From positions 1 to 21,651 of the forward strand of contig JAHRWC010000200.1 of NCBI GenBank assembly GCA_019090365.1: a stretch of 21,651 nucleotides of DNA, read 5' to 3'. This document shows positions 9,467-21,578 of this stretch, in pieces (the stretch's first letter is position 1; every line of letters starts with the position of its first letter). Under the pieces are notes generated by a model, which made no database searches, was not told where the DNA came from, and saw only the letters and a program-made list of their open reading frames with translations. Made by a program: the position numbers and the translations under genes. Origin of the DNA: Flavobacteriaceae bacterium (GTDB taxonomy: Bacteria; Bacteroidota; Bacteroidia; Flavobacteriales; Flavobacteriaceae).

Positions 9467-9775
9467 TTAAATACAACTTTTTGGTTTTGGAATTCCTGCA
9501 ATTAAAGTAGATTTCTTTAAAGGACCTCCAGGGAATAAAGCGTAAAAAGTTTTAATGTCGATTACACCGCTTTTTTTAATTCCTCTAATTGATAAAGCAG
9601 CATCTTCTTTATGTTTTCCTTGAAGAAATTCAACAACTTCCCAATGTTTATCTGTCATTTCAATTTCTTGCTCTTTTGCTAGTTCTATACCAATTTCTTT
9701 TGTCCATTGAGAGAAATCTGTTAGGTAGCCATCTTCTGTTGTGTTGATTTTATATCCTGCTATTGTTGTTTCCAT
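9467..9775 (-). CDS. TusE/DsrC-family sulfur relay protein with a single C-terminal cysteine
   Basis: A cytoplasmic sulfur relay protein of 102 residues. The family signature is clear: DGYLTDFSQWTKEIGIELAKEQEIEMTDKHWEVVEFL, then SIRGIKKSG, then FPGGPLKKSTLIAGIPKPKSCI. The penultimate residue Cys101 is the flexible-arm cysteine that carries sulfur. The second cysteine of true DsrC (GACKIAGLPKP type) is replaced by Thr90. This excludes the trisulfide chemistry used with DsrAB and makes it TusE-like or a DsrC-like carrier. No TusBCD or DsrAB genes are visible here. It lies between the SQR and DsrE genes in one operon. Confidence 0.9.
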   Translation of the reverse strand: METTIAGYKINTTEDGYLTDFSQWTKEIGIELAKEQEIEMTDKHWEVVEFLQGKHKEDAALSIRGIKKSGVIDIKTFYALFPGGPLKKSTLIAGIPKPKSCI

Positions 9776-9804: not shown

Positions 9805-11046
9805 TTATTTTTTGATATCAAATACTTTTCCTTTAAAGCTCATATTTCTTGAAACAAATGGAATTGCTATTCCTTTTAAAAGCATATTCCAATAGATCCA
9901 TCTAAATGCTAATTTCCCCCAGTGATTAAATACACTTTCTTTTAATAGCTTAAGAGGTCCAATTTTTGAAAACGGAAAGGTTCCATGAACAGGTTCTGTG
10001 ACATAATTAAAGTCGATTAATAAAGCTTTTTTATCTCCTGTTTCAATAAAACAATTTGCGTGACCATCAAATTCTTCTTTTAAAGTATATCCTTTGATAT
10101 ATAGAAGTATGTTATCGGTTAAAGTTTCTGCTTGGAAATGGGCTACAGAACCTGCCTTTGAAGCTGGGACATTTGTAGCATCACCAATGACAAACACATT
10201 CTCATTTTCTATAGATTGTAGGGTGTGTTTATGTGTTGGAATAAAGTTTAAATCGTCTCCCATACCAGATCTTTCAATTACCTCATCTCCCATATTAGTA
10301 GGGACAGTAACTAATAAATCGAAAGGAACTGTTTTATCTGCATAATCGATAATTTCTTTGTTTTCATTATCGACTCTTTCAATAGCGAAATCTGGTTCTA
10401 ATTTTATTCCCTTTTCTTCTAATAAATAACTAAGAGCTGTTGAACAAGTAGGTTTTGTAAAAGCACCGTCTAAAGGAGTTACATAGGTAATATCTACTTT
10501 ATCGCGCATTCCTTTTTCTTTGAAATATGAATCAGCTAGAAAAGCAAATTCAAGAGGAGCAACAGGACATTTTATTGGTAATTCAGTAATATGAACTACT
10601 AGTTTTCCACCTTCCCATTCACGTAATTTATTACGCAAAGCTAAAGCACCTTCAAAAGTGTAAAAGTCGAAAATATCTTTTTTCCAAAGAGGTCCAAGTA
10701 ATCCTTCTGTTTCATCTGGAGCAATTTTAGAGCCAGTAGCAACCACTAAAATATCATACTCTAAAGTTTCATCTTCTAGCTCAACTTTATTTTCTTCTGG
10801 AAGAATTTTTTCAATCTTTTTTTGAATATAATTTACTCCTTTTGGAATAAATTTTTTACCTACTTTTTTAACTTGTTCTTCAGTATAAGTGTCGAAGGGA
10901 AGAAATAAAAAGCCTGGTTGATAATAATGTGTTTTATACTGATCAACAATTGAGATATTCCATTCACCTTTGTTAAGTTTAGGTCTAAGATGGTTTGCCA
11001 TCATTGTCCCCGCTGTTCCTGAACCTAATATAACTAAGTTTTTCAT
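9805..11046 (-). CDS. sqr: Sulfide:quinone oxidoreductase-like FAD flavoprotein
   Basis: A membrane-associated flavoprotein of 413 residues that should oxidise sulfide to polysulfide or persulfide and reduce quinone. FAD-binding GSGTAGTMMANHL is at residues 8-20, the second nucleotide motif VVATGSKIAP at 101-110, and the third VFVIGDATNVPASKAG at 284-299. Cys160 (IKCPVAPLEFAF) and Cys332 (HANCFIETGDKKALL) match Cys160 and Cys356 of Acidithiobacillus SQR, the pair that holds the polysulfide. The third SQR cysteine (Cys128) is absent, with Cys201 elsewhere. A hydrophobic, basic C terminus (GKLAFRWIYWNMLLKGIAIPF) fits monotopic membrane binding. It heads an operon with TusE- and DsrE-like genes and carries both classes of Crp/Fnr-type sites upstream. 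Other members of the FccB/SQR superfamily remain possible. Confidence 0.85.
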   Translation of the reverse strand: MKNLVILGSGTAGTMMANHLRPKLNKGEWNISIVDQYKTHYYQPGFLFLPFDTYTEEQVKKVGKKFIPKGVNYIQKKIEKILPEENKVELEDETLEYDILVVATGSKIAPDETEGLLGPLWKKDIFDFYTFEGALALRNKLREWEGGKLVVHITELPIKCPVAPLEFAFLADSYFKEKGMRDKVDITYVTPLDGAFTKPTCSTALSYLLEEKGIKLEPDFAIERVDNENKEIIDYADKTVPFDLLVTVPTNMGDEVIERSGMGDDLNFIPTHKHTLQSIENENVFVIGDATNVPASKAGSVAHFQAETLTDNILLYIKGYTLKEEFDGHANCFIETGDKKALLIDFNYVTEPVHGTFPFSKIGPLKLLKESVFNHWGKLAFRWIYWNMLLKGIAIPFVSRNMSFKGKVFDIKK

Positions 11047-12996: not shown

Positions 12997-14007
12997 TTAA
13001 TTTACAATTGGTAAATTTTTTGAAACAGATGAACTCCATTGATTTGCAGTCCATGCAGGGTTAGAATTATATAAACCGTTCATTCCAAATTTTACACTAT
13101 AAGCATCATATCCTAATACACGCATCCATGCTGTAAGTACAGCAGAAGTTTGTCCTGTATAGCAATAGTTTGCAACTTGAGCATTCGTTGCAGGATCTAT
13201 TCCTTGATATCCATTATTTATTAATGTAAGATCTTCTTTAAATCGGTATGCATCAACTATGTGACCAAATCCTTGATAATCTGTTGCACTGAAATAATTA
13301 TTTATGAAGTAGTTACTTGGTGTATTAAGAACATCAATTCCGTTTATTCCTTTAAACCCTTCAGATAACACTAGCGCAATTCGGTCATTTAATATTTCTT
13401 GACCATCTGTTTCAAATGTTGTCATTGTTGGATCTGAAAAAACTAAATGAGTTGGTTCTTCATTAAATGACCAATTAGCATGACCTTCTGCTGGGCTAGC
13501 AATAGAATTATTCCAAGATGCTGCAGTTGCTGGATTCCAACCAGACATTCCCCATTTTAGCGCTTGTGTGTTACTATATCCTGCTAAACGTAATAAACCT
13601 GTACCATAACAAGCTGTTTGTCCTGTATAACATACTAATAGTATTGCTTGTCCATTTGCATTAGGAGCTTCATTTAATAAATCAGCAAGTGGTACATTAA
13701 TTGCCCCTTGAATATGTCCATTTGCAAAATCTGTATTACTTCTAATATCAACAATGTAATACTTGTCTAGAAATGTTTGAAGATCAGCTTCTGCAGGTGC
13801 GCCAGCAACAAATTTGGCTCCGTCAACATTCGTTAAGATTTTATCTATATCTAGATTGTTGTTAATCATATACTCTTTCATAAGAGTAAAAGCTGGAGTT
13901 GAACTTGATCCATTGTTTGTTACAAGATCATCTCCTCTATCACATGATGTTAAGAATAGTGAGGGTATCAAAAAGAGTCCAATAAGAAAGAATGATAATT
14001 TTTTCAT
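12997..14007 (-). CDS. Tandem-rhodanese lipoprotein with two active-site cysteines
   Basis: An envelope sulfurtransferase of 336 residues. The lipoprotein signal ends at FLTSCDRG with Cys22 as the lipidation site. Two rhodanese domains follow. The first (about 70-160) has YYIVDIRSNTDFANGHIQGAINVPL and the active loop CYTGQT at 126-131. The second (about 220-315) has NYFINNYFSATDYQGFGHI and a second CYTGQT at 282-287. Both catalytic cysteines are present, unlike the duplicated neighbour at 14038-15030. An extra Cys133 sits just after the first loop. Rhodaneses pass sulfane sulfur from thiosulfate or polysulfide to a thiol acceptor. It lies between the other tandem rhodanese and a porin in one operon, so it probably works at the periplasmic face or outer membrane. 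Confidence 0.87.
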   Translation of the reverse strand: MKKLSFFLIGLFLIPSLFLTSCDRGDDLVTNNGSSSTPAFTLMKEYMINNNLDIDKILTNVDGAKFVAGAPAEADLQTFLDKYYIVDIRSNTDFANGHIQGAINVPLADLLNEAPNANGQAILLVCYTGQTACYGTGLLRLAGYSNTQALKWGMSGWNPATAASWNNSIASPAEGHANWSFNEEPTHLVFSDPTMTTFETDGQEILNDRIALVLSEGFKGINGIDVLNTPSNYFINNYFSATDYQGFGHIVDAYRFKEDLTLINNGYQGIDPATNAQVANYCYTGQTSAVLTAWMRVLGYDAYSVKFGMNGLYNSNPAWTANQWSSSVSKNLPIVN

Positions 14008-14037: not shown

Positions 14038-15030
14038 TTATTCAATAACTGGATATGTGTTTACTTCTTTATTAGTAAAAGCATCCCATTTATTTTCTTT
14101 AAGTTTTTTATTTATAAAGCTATTAGCACCATAAGCTATGTTTCCTGTATCGTAACCTAATATGTTTAAGTAGGCAACTACATAGGCAGTTTCTTGACCT
14201 GTTGAACCATATACAGCAACTTTTTTATCTGTTGGAAGTGTCAATAAATCAGCAGTAGCTGATAAAGAAGCATTTGGTTGGTATTGAATAGCACCAGGAA
14301 TATGACCAAAGGCATATTTGTCTTGATCCCAATAATTTACGACATAGTAATTAGTAGCGTTTTCAAAAACATCTGCAGATTTGATTATTGATTCTTTATA
14401 AGGTGTAGCAAATGCTTTCTCTAATTGAGCTCTCAATATTTCTTTAGCATCTGTTTTACCAGTATTTAACACAGGAGAAATACCTTTTTCAGCTTTTGCG
14501 TTTTCTGTTGTTTCAAGGCTTTCTGCAAAATCATTTTTAATGTTTTTTAACCAAGAGTTTTCAGCAAAATCTAATCGCCAAGAGCTCATTCCCCATTTCA
14601 TGTTATACACATTGTTATAACCAGCTAATCTTAACAGTCCAGAAAAATATGCTGCTGATTGACCAGAATAGCAAACCAATGTAATTTTTTCAAAATCCTC
14701 TGGTTTGATGGTATTTTCAAAATAAGTAAGCAAATCTGCTGCTTTTACATTCACAGCATTTTTAATATGACCATATTCAAACCAACTATCACTTCGGATA
14801 TCTATTACATGATATTTTGGGTTTTTTAGATTCTTTTTGACTTCTTCAGCTTGAATTATAGCGGGAGCAGCTTCACTATTAATAAAGTTTCCATTCGCTT
14901 CTAAATACTCTATTAATATATCGAATTCTGATGCAGATATTTTGGCATCACTTTGACCTATAATTTTATAGCTATTTGTGAAAAATGTTATAAAAAATAG
15001 TAGCACTAAATACGAGGTTAATTTTTTCAT
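14038..15030 (-). CDS. Tandem-rhodanese periplasmic protein, second domain lacking the catalytic cysteine
   Basis: An exported protein of 330 residues. The signal peptide covers about 1-26 (ITFFTNSYKIIGQS); there is no lipobox. The first rhodanese domain (about 60-155) has YHVIDIRSDSWFEYGHIKNAVNV and the active loop CYSGQS with Cys120. In the second domain (about 215-305) the same place reads VAVYGSTGQE, so the cysteine is Gly275 and the domain cannot form a persulfide there. It is a paralogue of the next gene (shared WGMS motif, similar domain order), from which it is separated by 30 bases. It heads the rhodanese-rhodanese-porin operon, with an Fnr-like site in its promoter. Confidence 0.87.
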   Translation of the reverse strand: MKKLTSYLVLLFFITFFTNSYKIIGQSDAKISASEFDILIEYLEANGNFINSEAAPAIIQAEEVKKNLKNPKYHVIDIRSDSWFEYGHIKNAVNVKAADLLTYFENTIKPEDFEKITLVCYSGQSAAYFSGLLRLAGYNNVYNMKWGMSSWRLDFAENSWLKNIKNDFAESLETTENAKAEKGISPVLNTGKTDAKEILRAQLEKAFATPYKESIIKSADVFENATNYYVVNYWDQDKYAFGHIPGAIQYQPNASLSATADLLTLPTDKKVAVYGSTGQETAYVVAYLNILGYDTGNIAYGANSFINKKLKENKWDAFTNKEVNTYPVIE

Positions 15031-15379: not shown

Positions 15380-15988
15380 TTAACATCCACCTTCCACCGG
15401 CATTTTCTTTTTCTTTTTCTTCGGAACAACTTTTTTTGGTATTCTTTTTTTAGGTTTTGGAACGATTTTTACTTTTTTCTGAGATTCAGCTATAAAAGCA
15501 TTTATATCGGTTACATTTTTTTCAATTATACTATTATTTGTAATGAGTTTATTTTGTTCGTATGCTAAAGAGACTAATAAAATTTTAATATTTTCAAACC
15601 CTAATTGATACAAAACCATAAAAGCATTATTTGCTTCAGTTGGAGTAGAACCATATAAAATTGCCACTTTTTTATTGGCTGCTATTTTATTAAATAGTTC
15701 TGGATTATCACCTTTTAATAATTCAGGAGTTGAAATATTAATTGCTTCATTGAGATGACCTTTTTCAAATTCAAAAGGACTTCTTATATCAATTAAAACA
15801 ATACTTGGATCATCAATTTTATCTAGGGCAATAAAATAATCTGCTTTAATAACTTTTTCTAACATATCGTTAGAGTTCACTGTATATAAATGTTTTGGTC
15901 TCTCATAAAACAATAAACCAATAATTATTATTAATATAAAAAGCACTGCAGCAATTGATATTCTTTTAGTTTTTTCTAATTCTTTCAT
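15380..15988 (-). CDS. Membrane-anchored rhodanese-like protein without catalytic Cys, ending in a Lys-rich GGC tail (copy 2)
   Basis: A protein of 202 residues. One N-terminal membrane helix (about 9-27, IAAVLFILIIIIGLLF) places a rhodanese fold (about 40-145) in the periplasm. SIVLIDIRSPFEFEKGHLNEAINI is a clear rhodanese element, but the active-site loop reads AILYGSTPTEAN, with Gly113 where Cys is expected. A basic, proline-containing arm then leads to the very C terminus, VVPKKKKKKMPVEGGC, so Cys202 is the only cysteine in the whole protein and its last residue. This resembles the GGC carrier arm of SoxY and the C-terminal arm of DsrC/TusE, suggesting the tail carries the sulfur (inference). 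It is the last gene of the seven-gene operon, 25 bases after the first copy. Confidence 0.85.
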   Translation of the reverse strand: MKELEKTKRISIAAVLFILIIIIGLLFYERPKHLYTVNSNDMLEKVIKADYFIALDKIDDPSIVLIDIRSPFEFEKGHLNEAINISTPELLKGDNPELFNKIAANKKVAILYGSTPTEANNAFMVLYQLGFENIKILLVSLAYEQNKLITNNSIIEKNVTDINAFIAESQKKVKIVPKPKKRIPKKVVPKKKKKKMPVEGGC

Positions 15989-16013
15989 AATAAAAGTATT
16001 TCAATTATATTAT

Positions 16014-16673
16014 TTAGCAACCACCTTCAACAGGCATCTTTTTTTTCTTTTTTTTCGGAATCACTTTTTTCTTCGGAATTATTTTCACAACAGGTTTAGC
16101 TTTAAATTCATCTGGATATGCAACACCAAAATACATACTTGCAGCTTTTCTAAAGGAATATAATTCTGAAGCAATTACAGATTGATTTTCTGAAGGTTTT
16201 TCAGGATTTATAATTGTATTAAACCATGCATTAAGACCTCCTTTTAAAACACGAATATGATTATAATCCAATCGATTACAAATAAGCCAGGCTTGATCTG
16301 CATAAAAATGATCGTTCGAAAATAAAATAACATCAAATTGATCTTGGTTTAAGAATGAATTTGAATCCTCACTCAAAAGTTTGTCAAGCGGAATATTGAT
16401 TGAATTTGGAAGGCTATATTTTTTATAACTTTCCTCTTCTCTAACATCAATCAAAATAAAAGAGGGATCTTGATTAATGATAAGATCTGCTAGTTCATCT
16501 GTAGTAATATATCGTTCAGAACTCACCGCATTTTTCAACAATGCTTCCGGCTGAATACCTTCTTGTTTTTCATATTTAGGCAATACTACCAATCCGCCTG
16601 CTAAGACTAAAAATATGATTGCTAGTATTTTATACCTAAATGATAAAACTTTTGCTAACTTTCTATTAATCAT
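16014..16673 (-). CDS. Membrane-anchored rhodanese-like protein without catalytic Cys, ending in a Lys-rich GGC tail (copy 1)
   Basis: A protein of 219 residues. An N-terminal membrane helix (about 14-31, YKILAIIFLVLAGGLVVL) is followed by a rhodanese domain (about 55-152) with YITTDELADLI, FILIDVREEESYKKYSLPNSINIPL and VLKGGLNAWF. The active-site loop reads VILFSNDHFYAD (115-126) and has no cysteine. Cys132 lies in a helix and is not the catalytic position. The C-terminal arm (from about 192) is basic and ends VIPKKKKKKMPVEGGC, Cys219 being the last residue. The final 13 residues equal those of the next gene, although the rhodanese domains differ clearly, so the tail is under stronger constraint than the fold. 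It starts 11 bases after a YeeE/YedE gene. A role as sulfur carrier beside that transporter is an inference. Confidence 0.85.
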   Translation of the reverse strand: MINRKLAKVLSFRYKILAIIFLVLAGGLVVLPKYEKQEGIQPEALLKNAVSSERYITTDELADLIINQDPSFILIDVREEESYKKYSLPNSINIPLDKLLSEDSNSFLNQDQFDVILFSNDHFYADQAWLICNRLDYNHIRVLKGGLNAWFNTIINPEKPSENQSVIASELYSFRKAASMYFGVAYPDEFKAKPVVKIIPKKKVIPKKKKKKMPVEGGC

Positions 16674-16684
16674 AGTGATGCGCT

Positions 16685-17278
16685 TTAATTATAAAATATT
16701 TTTTTATTTCTTTTTCTAATGATATCTACAACGATAAAAGCAATAATTGCTATAATGGTAAATATGAATACAAACCAATAAGGTGATATTCCTAAGGAAT
16801 CGACGAGGGTAACATTTCCGAAGTAATAACCGCTATAAATAGGTTCGAAAAAGGAAATTAATTCAGAAAAAATAAAGATTCCAATTAAAATTCCACCGAC
16901 AAAAACCATAGCGTCAATTTTTCCGATAGCCACAGCGCATAAACTAGTTCCAGGGCAGAATCCACCTGAAACAAAACCAATTCCCATAATGGCTCCACCT
17001 ATAATTGCTCCCCATAAAAATGTTGGATGTACATACAGGCTGTTAAAATCAAGATATCCTAAGTAATCCATATACAGAATTCCTATTACTGAAACCAATG
17101 CAGCAGTAAAAAATACTTTTAAAACCACAAAGTCATATCCGTAAAAAACACCGGCTAATTTTCGGGAAGATGAAAAGCCTGAAGCTTCCAATATATATCC
17201 AAAAGCCAATCCTATAAGTATAGCAATTATGTAGCTCCATTCGTGAGAAATTATATCGTTTGGTATTAAAGGTCCCAT
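16685..17278 (-). CDS. YeeE/YedE-family sulfur transporter subunit
   Basis: A membrane protein of 197 residues with about five to six helices. The family motif GIGFVSGGFCPGTSLCAVAIGK (residues 99-120) contains Cys108 and Cys114, equivalent to the cysteines that pass thiosulfate through TsuA/YeeE. An N-terminal region GYILEASGFSSSRKLAGVFYGYDFVVLKVFF is typical of the group. It is about half the length of one-chain YeeE and follows a second half-size member (17294-17824) by 15 bases, so the two probably form one transporter. Its place after a periplasmic molybdoenzyme and before rhodanese-like carriers suggests import of thiosulfate or another sulfane-sulfur compound. Confidence 0.87.
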   Translation of the reverse strand: MGPLIPNDIISHEWSYIIAILIGLAFGYILEASGFSSSRKLAGVFYGYDFVVLKVFFTAALVSVIGILYMDYLGYLDFNSLYVHPTFLWGAIIGGAIMGIGFVSGGFCPGTSLCAVAIGKIDAMVFVGGILIGIFIFSELISFFEPIYSGYYFGNVTLVDSLGISPYWFVFIFTIIAIIAFIVVDIIRKRNKKIFYN

Positions 17279-17293: not shown

Positions 17294-17824
17294 TTATATC
17301 CAATTTTTTCTAAAGAAATACGCTGCTAAATAACCTGTTCCAAAAATGGAAAGCATCGTTATAAATCCACCTGTTGAAAGGACAGCCATTCCGCTAAGTG
17401 CTGCTCCACTTGTACAACCTCTCGCAATCTGAGATCCTAGTCCAAATAGCACTCCGCCTATTAAGGCAAAAACGAGTCTTCGTCTGGATGTTATTTTTGG
17501 AGAGTGTTGCGTTCTTAATCCAATTCTGCCTGCTAAACTTCCTGAAATAAAAGCTCCTAACAAGATCCCAATAGTTTCAAAAACAAGCCAATTGTTTAAA
17601 ACAGATTCATCTTTATTTATAAACTTGCTGTAATAAGAATTACTTTCAGCATGTGTATGAGAAATAGTATCTACTGTTGCGACTACGCTACTTTTCATTG
17701 CACCTGTAGCACCTAAACCTCTTCCTGTCATGTAAAAAGTAAAGATGATTAATATACCAAGTAGAAAACCACCAAAATATGGATTCCAGTATATATGCTT
17801 GTTTTGTTTTTTTTCTGCTTTCAT
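17294..17824 (-). CDS. YeeE/YedE-family sulfur transporter subunit, partner half
   Basis: A membrane protein of 176 residues with about four helices. The motif GLGSQIARGCTSGAALSGMAVLS with Cys137 is the YeeE/YedE signature. FYMTGRGLGATGAMKSSVV near residue 30 is also typical. A polar, His-containing loop at about 52-78 (DTISHTHAESNSYYSKF) separates the first helices. It is separated from the NrfD-like gene by 9 bases and from the second half by 15, so translation is tightly linked. With its neighbour it is expected to form the path for a sulfur oxyanion or sulfane sulfur through the inner membrane (inference from family and context). Confidence 0.87.
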   Translation of the reverse strand: MKAEKKQNKHIYWNPYFGGFLLGILIIFTFYMTGRGLGATGAMKSSVVATVDTISHTHAESNSYYSKFINKDESVLNNWLVFETIGILLGAFISGSLAGRIGLRTQHSPKITSRRRLVFALIGGVLFGLGSQIARGCTSGAALSGMAVLSTGGFITMLSIFGTGYLAAYFFRKNWI

Positions 17825-17833
17825 AATGTTTAT

Positions 17834-18793
17834 TTAATATAGATAGCGTGTAATTTGTCCTGCTTCAACCATAACAAACCTAAAAACAAGGCCTCCTAAT
17901 AGAACTAAAAGTGCTGCTATGGCAACGGGAGTTTTATAACCATATATTTCAATGAGCTCAAGAATTGCTGGGATTATTAAACCTAGAATTATTACAAAGA
18001 CAAAGAACATGACTGTAAATTCACCTCCAATCAATAATTGCATTGCTTCTACTTGTACTTCAGGACCAGCAAAATATCCCATAATCATATGAGAGATAAG
18101 CGCTAACTCGATAATGATTAATGCTAAATCTATTTTCCCAAAAAAGTGTTTTTCTTTTTTCTTTTTTGAAAGTAAAATAATGGTTGCTGCTGCTGTAGAT
18201 AAACCAGAAGTTAAAAATAGAGGTCCTAGTATTGCATTATTCCAAAGCGGTCTTGCATTAAAAGCTGAAAGTAATATTCCTGTATAGATTCCTAATATTA
18301 GGGTTAAAGGAATTAAAGCATAGGCTAAATATTTTCTGTTTTTAATGATATATTTTTCAAGACCATTCAAGAATTTAAGTCTTTTAAATACCTGAAGTTT
18401 ATTTTCTAGTTTTGGATATACTTCTCTGTAATAGCTAAAAGTCCAAAGAAAGGATATTGGCGTTACAATAAGTAATACCCAAGCTCCCCATGACATAGGA
18501 GATTCAATTCGTATTGTTGTGTATAATTGCCAAGTATATAGTTTATGTGTTAAATCGTATACCAACGCTAATAGTCCAATTGATAAAGCTATTGGAGGTA
18601 TCACAGATGAAACTTTTACAGCAGCTGGATATTTTTTATCCTTTCCTAATAGGTAAAAAACGGCAGCAAAAAATAAAAGCCCGGCAGCTAAACCTCCTAA
18701 AAATAAGTATAAAGAAATAGGCCAATGCCAGACTTCTAATGATGGATCTATATTAGGTATGTTTCTTCCGCTTATAAATAATTCCTCTTCCAT
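17834..18793 (-). CDS. NrfD/PsrC-family quinone-interacting membrane subunit
   Basis: An integral membrane subunit of 319 residues with about eight helices. It exchanges electrons between the quinone pool and the ferredoxin subunit. The N-terminal WHWPISLYLFLGGLAAGLLFFAAVFYLLG is the NrfD/PsrC start; SPMSWGAWVLLIVTPISFLW and the later acidic and His-bearing helices (ELALISHMIMGYFAG) are also characteristic. The gene follows the ferredoxin gene by 11 bases, completing a catalytic-ferredoxin-anchor order. The NrfD type could run in either direction, quinol to substrate or sulfur compound to quinone. The protein ends ITRYLY. Confidence 0.9.
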   Translation of the reverse strand: MEEELFISGRNIPNIDPSLEVWHWPISLYLFLGGLAAGLLFFAAVFYLLGKDKKYPAAVKVSSVIPPIALSIGLLALVYDLTHKLYTWQLYTTIRIESPMSWGAWVLLIVTPISFLWTFSYYREVYPKLENKLQVFKRLKFLNGLEKYIIKNRKYLAYALIPLTLILGIYTGILLSAFNARPLWNNAILGPLFLTSGLSTAAATIILLSKKKKEKHFFGKIDLALIIIELALISHMIMGYFAGPEVQVEAMQLLIGGEFTVMFFVFVIILGLIIPAILELIEIYGYKTPVAIAALLVLLGGLVFRFVMVEAGQITRYLY

Positions 18794-18804
18794 GTTAACA
18801 GTTT

Positions 18805-19338
18805 TTATAGTAAGTAATATACATGAGGCTTAGTTCCTGCTTCAGGAGCTAACGTTTTATACTTTCTTTTTTTCAATAATTGTGAAACTTCACTATTTGG
18901 ATTGTCCAAATCACCGAAATACATACACTTTGTAGGACATACAGAGACACAAGCTGGAAGTTGTCCTTTTTCTAATCGATGATGACAGAAGGTACATTTA
19001 TCTACATAACCATCTGGATGTTGGTACCGAGCATCGTAAGGACATGATTCTATACAAGCACCACAACCAATACATTCGTCTCCAGTAACTAATACAATTC
19101 CGCCTTCAACAATATGGCTTGCCCCGGTTGGACAACAACGAACGCAAGGAGCATTTTCACAATGATTACATCGTTCAGATTTTAGTTCTAAATCTAAACT
19201 TGGATACGTTCCTTTTACGGTTTCAGTAATCCAATCTCTACAATACCCAATAGGGACATCGTTCTCTGTCTGACAAGCAACAACGCAGTCACTACAACCT
19301 ACACATTTTAATGTGTCTATTACCATTGCATATCTCAT
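18805..19338 (-). CDS. Four-cluster ferredoxin subunit of the molybdoenzyme (PsrB/PhsB/NrfC-like)
   Basis: An electron-transfer subunit of 177 residues. Four cysteine groups give four [4Fe-4S] clusters: CVGCSDCVVACQTEN (12-26), CNHCENAPCVRCCPTGA (57-73), CIGCGACIESCPYDA (89-103) and CTFCHHRLEKGQLPACVSVCP (115-135). There is no own signal peptide; the family is normally exported together with the Tat-bearing catalytic subunit. The start codon overlaps the end of the catalytic subunit gene by four bases, indicating translational coupling. Length and cysteine layout fit PsrB, PhsB and TtrB equally well. Confidence 0.93.
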   Translation of the reverse strand: MRYAMVIDTLKCVGCSDCVVACQTENDVPIGYCRDWITETVKGTYPSLDLELKSERCNHCENAPCVRCCPTGASHIVEGGIVLVTGDECIGCGACIESCPYDARYQHPDGYVDKCTFCHHRLEKGQLPACVSVCPTKCMYFGDLDNPNSEVSQLLKKRKYKTLAPEAGTKPHVYYLL

Positions 19339-21578
19339 ATTCCTATTGTTTTATGTGGATCTTCAGTTAATATGGTGACAAAATTTCCTCTCATTCCAGT
19401 TCCCCCCATGATCGGGTCAATGGCAACTTTTGTAATTAATTGCGTATCATTTATTCCTTTTCCGAAGGCTCTTTTTAATTTTTTGTTATTGTGACCAAAA
19501 CCATGAACCATATATACAGAATCCCATCGTACTCTTTCCGTAATTCTAACCTTGATTGAAAATGTTGAAATAATTCCATCTTGATTTTTCAACCATACTT
19601 CTTGATTTTTTTTCAGTCCAATGATTCTTGCAACTTTCGGATTTACCCAAAGGTTATTTTCATCTTTTAAATCATTTAAATTGGGATTGTTGGCAGTTCT
19701 ACTAAATGTATGCATAGGAGCTCTACCGTAATTCAATCTATAAAAACCTTGAGGTGGTTCAGGATGTTTTGTGTATTTAGGTAATGGATCAAAGCCTAAG
19801 TTTTTTAACTCTTGTGAGTATAATTCAATCTTTCCGCTTTCAGTTGGGAATGTATAATTTTCATCTTCTTTTAAATAAAGAGGTCCTGATGTTCTTGGAT
19901 AATTTTTAACACCAATTTTTTTCATTTCCTCTAAAGAAGTCCCCATTTTATCTAATTGCCATTCTATAACTTCTTTATAATCGGTGTAGTTAAAGAATTC
20001 ATTTAAATTTAGTCGATCTCCAATTTCTTTTGCCATCCACCAAGCTGGTTTTGAATTGTATTTAGGAGCAACCGCAGGAATTCTAACTGCAATAGAAGGT
20101 TCTCTGTTGGTTGCAGAACGAATTCCGTCATAACGTTCTAGGTATGTACATTCAGGTAAAACAACATCTGCATATCCAGTAACATCCATAGGCATTGTAT
20201 CGACTACAACCATAAAATCTAACTCATTAATAGCTTTTTCTAATAATGCCTTATTCGGTATAGCTTTAGTAAGGTTAGTTCCTGCAACCATCCACGCTTT
20301 AATAGGATATTTATTATCCTTATGAGGAATAGAAGCATTAATTACTTCGGTAGTAATTCCCATTTGAGCTAAAGGATATTTTTCACCAATCTCTTGCCAT
20401 CCCCATTTTGGGTGTGGATATTTTGGGTGTGGATATTTAGGAACGTTAATTTTTTCTTTGAAATAGAATCCACCACGACGACCCCAAGAACCTAATAATG
20501 CATTTAAAATAGCCATGGTTCTAGCTCTTTGTGAATCATCTCCATACCACACAACGTGACGTCCAGGATGTATAATTACAGCAGGAGAAGCATTTGCCAT
20601 TTCTCTAGCAGTTCTTCTTATTACTTCTGGTTTAATTGTAGTGATTCCGTAAGCCCATTCTGGAGTGAATTGACGGACATGTTCTTTTAGTTCATCAAAA
20701 CCTTTTGCATATTTTTTAATATAATCTTTATCGTAAATTCCTTCATAAATTAATACATGAATCCAAGAAAGCATTAAAGCAATATCAGTAGCAGGTTTAA
20801 TGGCTAACCAATATTTCGACTTACTTGCTGCAGTTGATAATCTAGGGTCAACAGTAATAATGGTTGCACCGTTATCAATGGCATCAGACATTTCTTGAAC
20901 TTGCGTATTGTGCATGTTTTCACCAATATGTGATCCAATAAGCACTAAGCATTTTGTATCTCGAATATCTGTAGGTTCTGGTGAGCCAACCCATGATCCA
21001 TATGTTAATGCAAATCCAGTTTCTCTTGGTCCTCTACATTGAGCGTAAGCAGGTTCAGCAATTGTGTCTGAACCAAATGCTTTAAATAAATGTTCAAAGT
21101 GTTTTCCAGGAGATCCATGTTTTAATAATGCAATAGATTCTGCACCGAATTCTTCTTTAATTACTTTAAATTTTGAAGCAATTAAATCTAATGCTTCAGT
21201 CCAACTAGCTTCAACAAAAGTTTCTTCACCGTTTACCATTTTTCTAATTAATGGAGTTTTTAAGCGATCATCATCATGGTACATTCCAACACCACCAGTT
21301 CCTCTAGGACATAATCTTCCATAACAATGAGAATCTTCTTCATTCCCTATTATTTTTTTAATAGTTCCTTCTTCATCTGTATACGTCCATGCAGCACATT
21401 TCCAAAAACAAACTTCACAATATGTAGGTGTTCTATTAAATTTTTTAGTAAGATTTTCTCTCACCAATTCATCGACATATGGATTGGATCCGAACATATT
21501 AAAAGCAGATGAAGCTGCAGCTACACCTCCTATACTTAGAGCAGAAATTTTAATAAATTTTCTTCTTGAAGTAGTCAT
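19335..21578 (-). CDS. Periplasmic molybdopterin oxidoreductase, Psr/Phs-like catalytic subunit
   Basis: A catalytic subunit of 747 residues of the bis-molybdopterin guanine dinucleotide family. A Tat signal TTSRRKFIKISALSIGG starts the protein, so it acts in the periplasm. A [4Fe-4S] site follows: Cys54, Cys57, Cys61 and Cys90 (YCEVCFWKC ... GRLCPRG). Cys181 in AEPAYAQCRGPRETGF is the likely molybdenum ligand. Later blocks AWMVAGTNLTKAIPN, DVVLPECTYLERYDG and RAPMHTFSRTANNP are typical. The Tat signal argues against SoeA, which is cytoplasmic. Psr, Phs or Ttr-type substrates (polysulfide, thiosulfate, tetrathionate) are likely given the rhodanese and YeeE/YedE genes downstream, but substrate and direction cannot be read from the sequence. 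An exact in-frame 15-bp tandem duplication at 20406-20435 repeats YPHPK. Confidence 0.9.
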   Translation of the reverse strand: MTTSRRKFIKISALSIGGVAAASSAFNMFGSNPYVDELVRENLTKKFNRTPTYCEVCFWKCAAWTYTDEEGTIKKIIGNEEDSHCYGRLCPRGTGGVGMYHDDDRLKTPLIRKMVNGEETFVEASWTEALDLIASKFKVIKEEFGAESIALLKHGSPGKHFEHLFKAFGSDTIAEPAYAQCRGPRETGFALTYGSWVGSPEPTDIRDTKCLVLIGSHIGENMHNTQVQEMSDAIDNGATIITVDPRLSTAASKSKYWLAIKPATDIALMLSWIHVLIYEGIYDKDYIKKYAKGFDELKEHVRQFTPEWAYGITTIKPEVIRRTAREMANASPAVIIHPGRHVVWYGDDSQRARTMAILNALLGSWGRRGGFYFKEKINVPKYPHPKYPHPKWGWQEIGEKYPLAQMGITTEVINASIPHKDNKYPIKAWMVAGTNLTKAIPNKALLEKAINELDFMVVVDTMPMDVTGYADVVLPECTYLERYDGIRSATNREPSIAVRIPAVAPKYNSKPAWWMAKEIGDRLNLNEFFNYTDYKEVIEWQLDKMGTSLEEMKKIGVKNYPRTSGPLYLKEDENYTFPTESGKIELYSQELKNLGFDPLPKYTKHPEPPQGFYRLNYGRAPMHTFSRTANNPNLNDLKDENNLWVNPKVARIIGLKKNQEVWLKNQDGIISTFSIKVRITERVRWDSVYMVHGFGHNNKKLKRAFGKGINDTQLITKVAIDPIMGGTGMRGNFVTILTEDPHKTIGI
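20406..20435. repeat. Perfect 15-bp tandem duplication inside the molybdoenzyme gene
   Basis: TTTTGGGTGTGGATA occurs twice head to tail (20406-20420 and 20421-20435), giving KYPHPKYPHPKWGW in the protein near residue 385. It keeps the frame and looks like a recent slippage event or a repeated loop motif. Confidence 0.85.

Follow-up and report, generated by a model that had tools for sequence, protein, structure and literature searches.

A pseudo-rhodanese family with a C-terminal cysteine arm as candidate periplasmic sulfur carriers next to YeeE/YedE importers

What is the role of two adjacent rhodanese-fold proteins that lack the catalytic cysteine of their fold and end in the same Lys-rich arm with cysteine as its last residue? 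The question is raised by a stretch of 21,651 nucleotides from a Flavobacteriaceae bacterium (assembly GCA_019090365.1, contig JAHRWC010000200.1), which is called the window throughout. An earlier sequence-only reading had suspected that this pair represents a new periplasmic sulfur-carrier design, in which the rhodanese fold is a scaffold and the tail carries the sulfur.

The locus and its two pseudo-rhodaneses

The two proteins, termed RhdA and RhdB, are encoded on the minus strand in the order Mo subunit, 4Fe-4S subunit, NrfD-type subunit, YeeE1, YeeE2, RhdA, RhdB, RhdC and RhdD. After RhdD follow a porin-like protein, a Crp-type regulator, a type III sulfide:quinone reductase (SQR), a TusE/DsrC-family protein and DsrE2.

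19335..21578, minus strand: molybdopterin catalytic subunit, PhsA/PsrA-like, with the twin-arginine motif SRRKF
18805..19338, minus strand: 4Fe-4S ferredoxin subunit, assigned by family profile matches
17834..18793, minus strand: NrfD-type membrane subunit, assigned by family profile matches
17294..17824, minus strand: YeeE1, Sulf_transp, PmpA-type half transporter with the Cys of RGCTSG
16685..17278, minus strand: YeeE2, Sulf_transp, PmpB/YedE-type half transporter with the Cys of FCPGT
16014..16673, minus strand: RhdA, 219 aa; N-in membrane helix, pseudo-rhodanese domain and Lys-rich arm ending in GGC
16014..16055, minus strand: DNA of the RhdA arm, last 13 residues (KKKKKKMPVEGGC) and stop
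15380..15988, minus strand: RhdB, 202 aa; second pseudo-rhodanese, arm as in RhdA
15380..15421, minus strand: DNA of the RhdB arm, last 13 residues and stop
14038..15030, minus strand: RhdC, two-domain rhodanese with a signal-like N-terminus; domain 1 has the active-type Cys loop VCYSGQ
12997..14007, minus strand: RhdD, rhodanese with a lipoprotein-like N-terminus and active-type loops (CYTGQ)
9467-9775: TusE/DsrC-family protein, TIGR03342 at 78.9 bits (cut-off 53.5); its only Cys is the penultimate residue
8976-9449: DsrE2, adjoining the TusE/DsrC-family protein and SQR

Both YeeE1 and YeeE2 qualify as Sulf_transp halves (PF04143) with the conserved cysteine. In the family this importer pair follows a periplasmic sulfur enzyme of one of three kinds, a setting that the sequence-only reading had missed. 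The Mo subunit had PhsA as its best NCBIfam model with 460.9 bits, which misses the curated cut-off of 694 and suggests membership in the same broad family as thiosulfate reductase PhsA. RhdC and RhdD do not have a Cys arm and are possible loaders, and the TusE/DsrC-family protein and DsrE2 are plausible cytoplasmic acceptors. The SQR ORF (9805-11046) reads open without an internal stop and matched the model for the selenoprotein subtype of type III SQR (NF049943) with 646.9 bits (cut-off 525). SQR, TusE and DsrE2 matches were also present on the arm loci L221 and L228.

The fold of RhdA and RhdB was as had been read from the letters, with 49.8 and 50.9 bits for the pair against Pfam Rhodanese PF00581 (cut-off 22.2), and membrane anchoring was borne out by a single N-terminal hydrophobic helix in each protein. 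The claimed loss of the loop cysteine also held: the catalytic column is occupied by Ser in RhdA (LFSND) and by Gly in RhdB (LYGST). In the family-profile alignment the catalytic Cys of the solved rhodanese 6mxv (YCGGGFRSA) lies over the Ser of the family motif YSEGGIHSA. A Foldseek search with the AlphaFold model of RhdA returned rhodaneses as top PDB matches. The core blocks of this model mostly reach a pLDDT of 90 or more, whereas residues 190-200 are below 50 and the end is at 57-62; as a low-confidence region of the model the Lys-rich arm of RhdA is probably disordered.

Both proteins terminate in PKKKKKKMPVEGGC. The last 14 residues agree at 14/14 positions, yet 7 of the 14 codons differ synonymously, so the match is one at the protein level and does not stem from a recent DNA copy. 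RhdB contains one cysteine, its last residue, and RhdA two, residues 132 and 219. The pattern PVEGGC-stop occurs nowhere else in the 2.55-Mb draft genome (88% complete). No NCBIfam model scored above its cut-off for RhdA or RhdB, and TIGR03342 of the DsrC/TusE family was not among their matches. At an E-value of 0.01 Rhodanese was the only domain found in the two proteins, the SoxY domain PF13501 being absent; a search for PF13501 gave 0 matches in the draft genome as well as in the control genomes.

Conservation of the terminal cysteine in the family

Five profile searches were run over genome sets, the matching loci were then collected and their ORFs examined. Among close genomes 14/59 matched at a loose cut-off, with strong tail-bearing matches in G000, G009, G036 and G051. 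Matches were found in 68/395 genomes of the phylum, 9/395 of the order, 90/294 of one class and 7/199 of the phylum of an Acidobacteria genome. In the collected loci the tail-containing profiles identified 148 distinct ORFs; 138 closed with Cys at position -1 or -2, 9 closed without a terminal Cys and 1 runs off an end. The nine comprise the broken genes L329 and L121 (each with an EGC tail after the break) and L313 (..RYRC), five ORFs with a catalytic-type Cys loop (L349, L327, L322, L321 and L016), and L326, where the arm is on the next ORF. The catalytic column of the 138 Cys-ended relatives was Ser in 66, Gly in 34, Ala in 28, Cys in 4 and other residues in 6. The sequence-only reading had named tail-bearing homologues devoid of the Cys, and a loop Cys retained in most homologues, as observations that would speak against it; homologues did not keep the tail while losing its cysteine, and the catalytic-column Cys was found in only 4/138.

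Because the first profiles held tail columns, the count was repeated with a tail-blind profile that stops before the tail. It was run on 294 genomes, of the same class as the earlier search with 90/294 matches, and on sets of 150 and 184 genomes. At E 1e-12 the matching genomes were 15/150, 18/184 and at least 149/294, ordinary rhodaneses included. ORFs were then rescored in all collected loci except the tail-scan loci, the collection covering a part of the matches. With a domain score of at least 70 there were 167 closed relatives, and 156 of them had Cys at -1 or -2. The 11 exceptions were the three broken genes (L329, L121 and L313), in which a Cys tail is still encoded, L437 with unread bases at the tail, L413, which is an ordinary rhodanese (YCHHGMRS), and L410, L411, L412, L414, L415 and L326, where a neighbouring ORF of its own provides the Cys arm. 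In the broken genes an in-frame stop or frame break precedes the Cys tail, which marks them as pseudogenes or assembly errors.

A catalytic-column Cys was present in 5/167 relatives at this score, of which 4 were also armed. At scores of 60-70 three of the 8 closed ORFs had a catalytic Cys, none of them armed, and 4 others a terminal Cys. The 38 closed ORFs at 40-60 were mostly ordinary rhodaneses; 32 had the catalytic Cys, 9 a terminal Cys and 3 both, and several of the nine were RhdB-type arm proteins. Arm Cys and catalytic Cys thus appear nearly mutually exclusive across the family. As a base rate, 1/309 neighbouring MoCo, FeS, NrfD and YeeE genes had Cys at -1 or -2 versus 156/167 in the family.

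To explore the spread of the arm further, the DNA of one genome each for 84,980 species was scanned for KKK[KR]EGC-stop. This returned 110 stretches, 80 of which have an ORF of at least 60 aa ending in the motif (61/80 plus 19/30); the other 30/110 have none, and the family counts rest on the 80. The family profile matched 77/80 of the motif-ended ORFs (59/61 plus 18/19). All three off-family ORFs were short, i.e. L155 (86 aa), L221 (81 aa) and L183 (77 aa); the L221 locus carries SQR, TusE and DsrE2 matches, while L183 is without a neighbour match. Record titles of the profile-matching loci named Ignavibacteria, Melioribacter, Stygiobacter, Maribacter, Chlorobiaceae, Acidobacteria, Opitutaceae, Gemmatimonadetes and Gammaproteobacteria, nearly all of them MAGs. 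Having been picked by its tail, this set is uninformative on how often the tail is kept. Selenocysteine at the arm was considered and rejected, as the in-frame TGA of two full-length matches lies upstream of the likely start (G864) or in the linker (G904). Taken together, the idea of a periplasmic scaffold with a tail cysteine survived the sequence checks, but the design is not specific to this pair and belongs to a large multi-phylum family.

Neighbouring genes, membrane side and tails

Gene context was evaluated for 113 members in 108 loci of at least 6 kb each. The pseudo-rhodanese is fused to YeeE2 in 49/113 members and unfused in 64/113. Both YeeE halves were detected upstream of 55/64 unfused members, and in 45/64 YeeE1, YeeE2, NrfD, FeS and Mo genes were all upstream; where one or more were missing this was due to contig ends, overlong ORFs or real absence. 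The YeeE Cys motifs were present in 99/106 and 106/107 ORFs. With respect to the head enzyme 52 members were of the Mo/NrfD type (48 loci), 46 were multiheme, and 15 had neither or were at an edge. A multi-domain rhodanese lies upstream of the YeeE genes in 9 of these 15, split into two ORFs in L092; the five that were checked each have an active-type Cys loop, along with 2 or 3 rhodanese stretches. A rhodanese-repeat protein is also present in L325, which was placed in the Mo group. The fused loci without NrfD had the same cytochrome family upstream in 46/48 cases. The one representative tested matched TIGR04315, the tetrathionate reductase family octaheme cytochrome, with 604.6 bits (cut-off 375), and in most such loci a cytochrome b561 lies between the octaheme cytochrome and YeeE1.

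The commonest arm endings differed by head enzyme, with [ED]GC in 38/52 Mo members and GGC or GGCx in 46/46 multiheme members. The proposition that the head enzyme sets the arm type holds only partly and is confounded by ancestry, the multiheme set being one side of a branch. Head type and fusion each changed 3 times on a quickly built tree, many of whose branches are weak; the three enzyme contexts therefore represent few independent events. Arm and importer were not always found together. Genome G351 (99% complete; L066, G351:C4) kept RhdA, RhdB and the Mo complex, and Sulf_transp gave no match there at E 1e-5 in a search whose control matched 4/14 genomes. Thus import is not obligatory and not the whole story. 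On the other hand, the window's genome has a second, short YeeE pair (L361, G000:C103:1998-2984) whose 4.4-kb contig lacks an arm gene, hence YeeE pairs can exist without arms.

The membrane side was assessed by charge. The mean net charge was +2.6 before the helix and -0.1 after it, and the charge before the helix exceeded that after it in 55/64 unfused and 42/49 fused proteins. Some relatives of RhdB start lipoprotein-like (L005, L006). A twin-arginine-like motif was found with a loose pattern in 49/49 Mo subunits of more than 600 aa. By the positive-inside charges the domain and its arm are predicted on the outer side of the membrane, as is the Mo subunit. An AlphaFold model of a YeeE2-Rhd fusion was discarded as a source of geometry, because its mean pLDDT of 54 was too low.

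The last 22 residues of the relatives have a net charge of 0 to +11. Among the 138 Cys-ended relatives the arm ended in GC in 134 and in GGC in 66; GGCGG was seen in 0/147 closed endings, which were GGC, GGCG/A/S, EGC and others. In 53/80 members under 330 aa the arm Cys is the sole cysteine. Seven loci (L326, L410, L411, L412, L414, L415 and L416) encode the arm on an ORF of its own that directly precedes YeeE1. The separate ORFs end in ..PKKKSAGC or ..KKRKSVGC in the first six and in ..RSAGC in L416 (score 66, one rhodanese stretch). The YeeE2-linked protein of the first six has three rhodanese stretches, the last with an active-type loop in the two checked (L410 and L326). The separate arm ORF of L326 (8151-10253, minus strand) encodes 700 aa with Lactamase_B and rhodanese matches, an architecture that presumably resembles persulfide dioxygenase-rhodanese fusions. 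The arm ORF of L410-L412 and L414-L416 is truncated at the edge of the DNA, and its length is partial.

Tails differ between genomes, while those of RhdA and RhdB nearly match within one genome and the domains are about 27% identical, in keeping with the notion that the folds diverged and the tail was kept. In seven genomes with both proteins the last 14 residues agreed at 93/98 positions within genomes, and the true pairing was the only one of 5040 permutations to reach this value. Pairing of the bodies had no effect, with 27% identity within and between genomes (2772 of 5040). For five less related genomes the tail pairing was 1 of 120. Within genomes 2-7 of the 14 tail codons differed synonymously between RhdA and RhdB, which argues for selection on the protein and makes recent gene conversion an insufficient explanation of identical tails. 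Older or partial conversion could have contributed, in G351 (2/14 codons differ) even recently. A shared docking pocket would most simply account for the selection. Some genomes have two or three copies whose arms match. G036 and G051 each encode a third tail-bearing protein; it is a double rhodanese, has active-type loops and agrees with the tail at 13/14 and 14/14 positions. In L123 (7025-8146, minus strand) and L124 (10531-11649, plus strand) an active-loop double rhodanese carries the arm of its two pseudo-rhodanese neighbours, perhaps combining loader and carrier in one chain.

A proposed route, its alternatives and known systems

The terminal Cys that is kept, the catalytic Cys that is lost and the arm that can reside on another ORF point to a carrier at the outer face that loads the importer, as does the combination of three periplasmic sulfur enzymes with an importer pair for zero-valent sulfur (PMC10812762, excerpted text). 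A sulfur-carrier role of the arm is highly probable on these sequence data if the import route and a role for the redox enzyme only are taken together. For RhdA and RhdB as periplasmic carriers on a route from enzyme to arm to YeeE1/2 the balance is favorable, and this is the reading we prefer. The PhsA/PsrA-like Mo complex with its FeS and NrfD subunits would generate or handle sulfane sulfur, perhaps with the help of RhdC and RhdD, and the terminal thiolate of the arm would accept it, forming a persulfide or S-sulfonate. Next, the arm would swing to YeeE1 and YeeE2, whose two conserved cysteines would pass the sulfur through the membrane to cytoplasmic acceptors, e.g. DsrE2 and TusE, whose genes lie on this contig. 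The arm's basic residues may lower the pKa of the thiol, bind anionic sulfur species or dock in a pocket common to RhdA and RhdB.

Sud presumably feeds PsrABC, and by analogy the arm might serve the redox enzyme only, presenting sulfur of polysulfide or thiosulfate to the Mo or octaheme site for reduction, with YeeE having another task. The persistence of arm and Mo complex in G351 without a YeeE match is consistent with this, and so are arm endings that differ by head as though moulded by the enzyme, but all multiheme members fall on one side of a tree branch. We regard this alternative as unlikely, given that both YeeE halves are upstream of 55/64 unfused members, that YeeE2 is fused to the other 49, and that YeeE and arm also occur together with a multi-domain rhodanese in place of a reductase.

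A fold that is kept without its catalytic Cys, in some genomes in two or three copies with matching arms, could also be a structural or sensory pseudo-enzyme, with the domain holding a complex together and the terminal Cys forming a regulatory or structural disulfide between RhdA and RhdB or with YeeE. Yet a structural disulfide alone would leave the long basic arm unexplained, and the arm Cys is the only cysteine in 53/80 members under 330 aa; we consider this quite improbable. There is but a slight chance that the terminal Cys is a ligand of a metal or cofactor or a site of lipid or other attachment. The basic tail with its C-terminal Cys resembles some membrane-targeting or metallochaperone tails, but the aligned rows show no further conserved Cys or His in the arm, a membrane anchor is already present, and the neighbours are sulfur genes.

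In a wider reading, the arm proteins could be a third class of swinging-arm carriers with a C-terminal Cys, one that evolved separately from SoxY and DsrC/TusE and has a retired rhodanese as its scaffold. They would load YeeE/YedE at the outer face in several phyla with three unrelated donor enzymes, the arm being a movable module that co-evolves between copies. To this wider proposal we assign an even chance. The family would be a concrete candidate loader that brings periplasmic sulfane sulfur to YeeE/YedE importers. It predicts that octaheme 'tetrathionate reductase' cytochromes and Phs/Psr-like complexes feed sulfur inwards in many such genomes, and the Cys arm would provide a sequence marker for such loci. 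Here the catalytic thiol of an enzyme fold seems to be replaced by a thiol on an arm.

Import of sulfur into the cytoplasm is called poorly understood in the abstract of the SoxT paper (PMC11582611). According to published excerpts, import of zero-valent sulfur by YedE1E2 depends on one Cys per half (PMC10812762), and YeeD serves as a cytoplasmic 'fourth cysteine' of YeeE (PMC11073785). YeeE1 and YeeE2 are such half transporters with conserved Cys motifs as in PmpAB/YedE1E2 and TsuAB (YeeE-YeeD); the known partner YeeD is cytoplasmic, however (PMC11073785, excerpt), whereas the thiol of RhdA and RhdB is predicted on the outer side. The YeeE/YedE proteins of Desulfurivibrio have been proposed to take sulfur from periplasmic polysulfide or sulfurtransferases, and the excerpted proposal mentions no arm (PMC12142623). 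In the YTD cluster (YedE-TusA-DsrE) YeeE/YedE likewise adjoins sulfur transfer proteins; excerpts of its literature do not mention a pseudo-rhodanese arm protein. Excerpted open-licence PMC text covered YeeE/YedE, PmpAB, YTD and Psr systems and contained no description of the arm family (e.g. PMC11582611, PMC9751629, PMC12998232, PMC13047784, PMC13293266).

RhdA and RhdB share the fold of active rhodaneses and differ from them by the loss of the catalytic-loop Cys. Their profile also matched PDB 1qxn (E 4e-6), labelled 'sulfide dehydrogenase', which we take to be Sud, the polysulfide sulfurtransferase of Wolinella. Sud works beside the periplasmic polysulfide reductase and uses its catalytic-loop Cys, whereas RhdA and RhdB have lost the loop Cys and bear the thiol on the arm. 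DsrC/TusE proteins are cytoplasmic and bear, on a swinging arm, a Cys close to the C-terminus; RhdA and RhdB share a Cys near the C-terminus, but are outside TIGR03342. SoxY, with an arm ending in GGCGG, has in common with them the idea of a periplasmic carrier and a mobile arm with Gly-Gly-Cys at its C-terminal end. In contrast to SoxY, RhdA and RhdB have a rhodanese fold with Cys last or next to last, and they are partnered by YeeE1/2 together with Phs/Psr-like, octaheme or rhodanese proteins. The arm family would thus work like SoxY or DsrC but belongs to neither.
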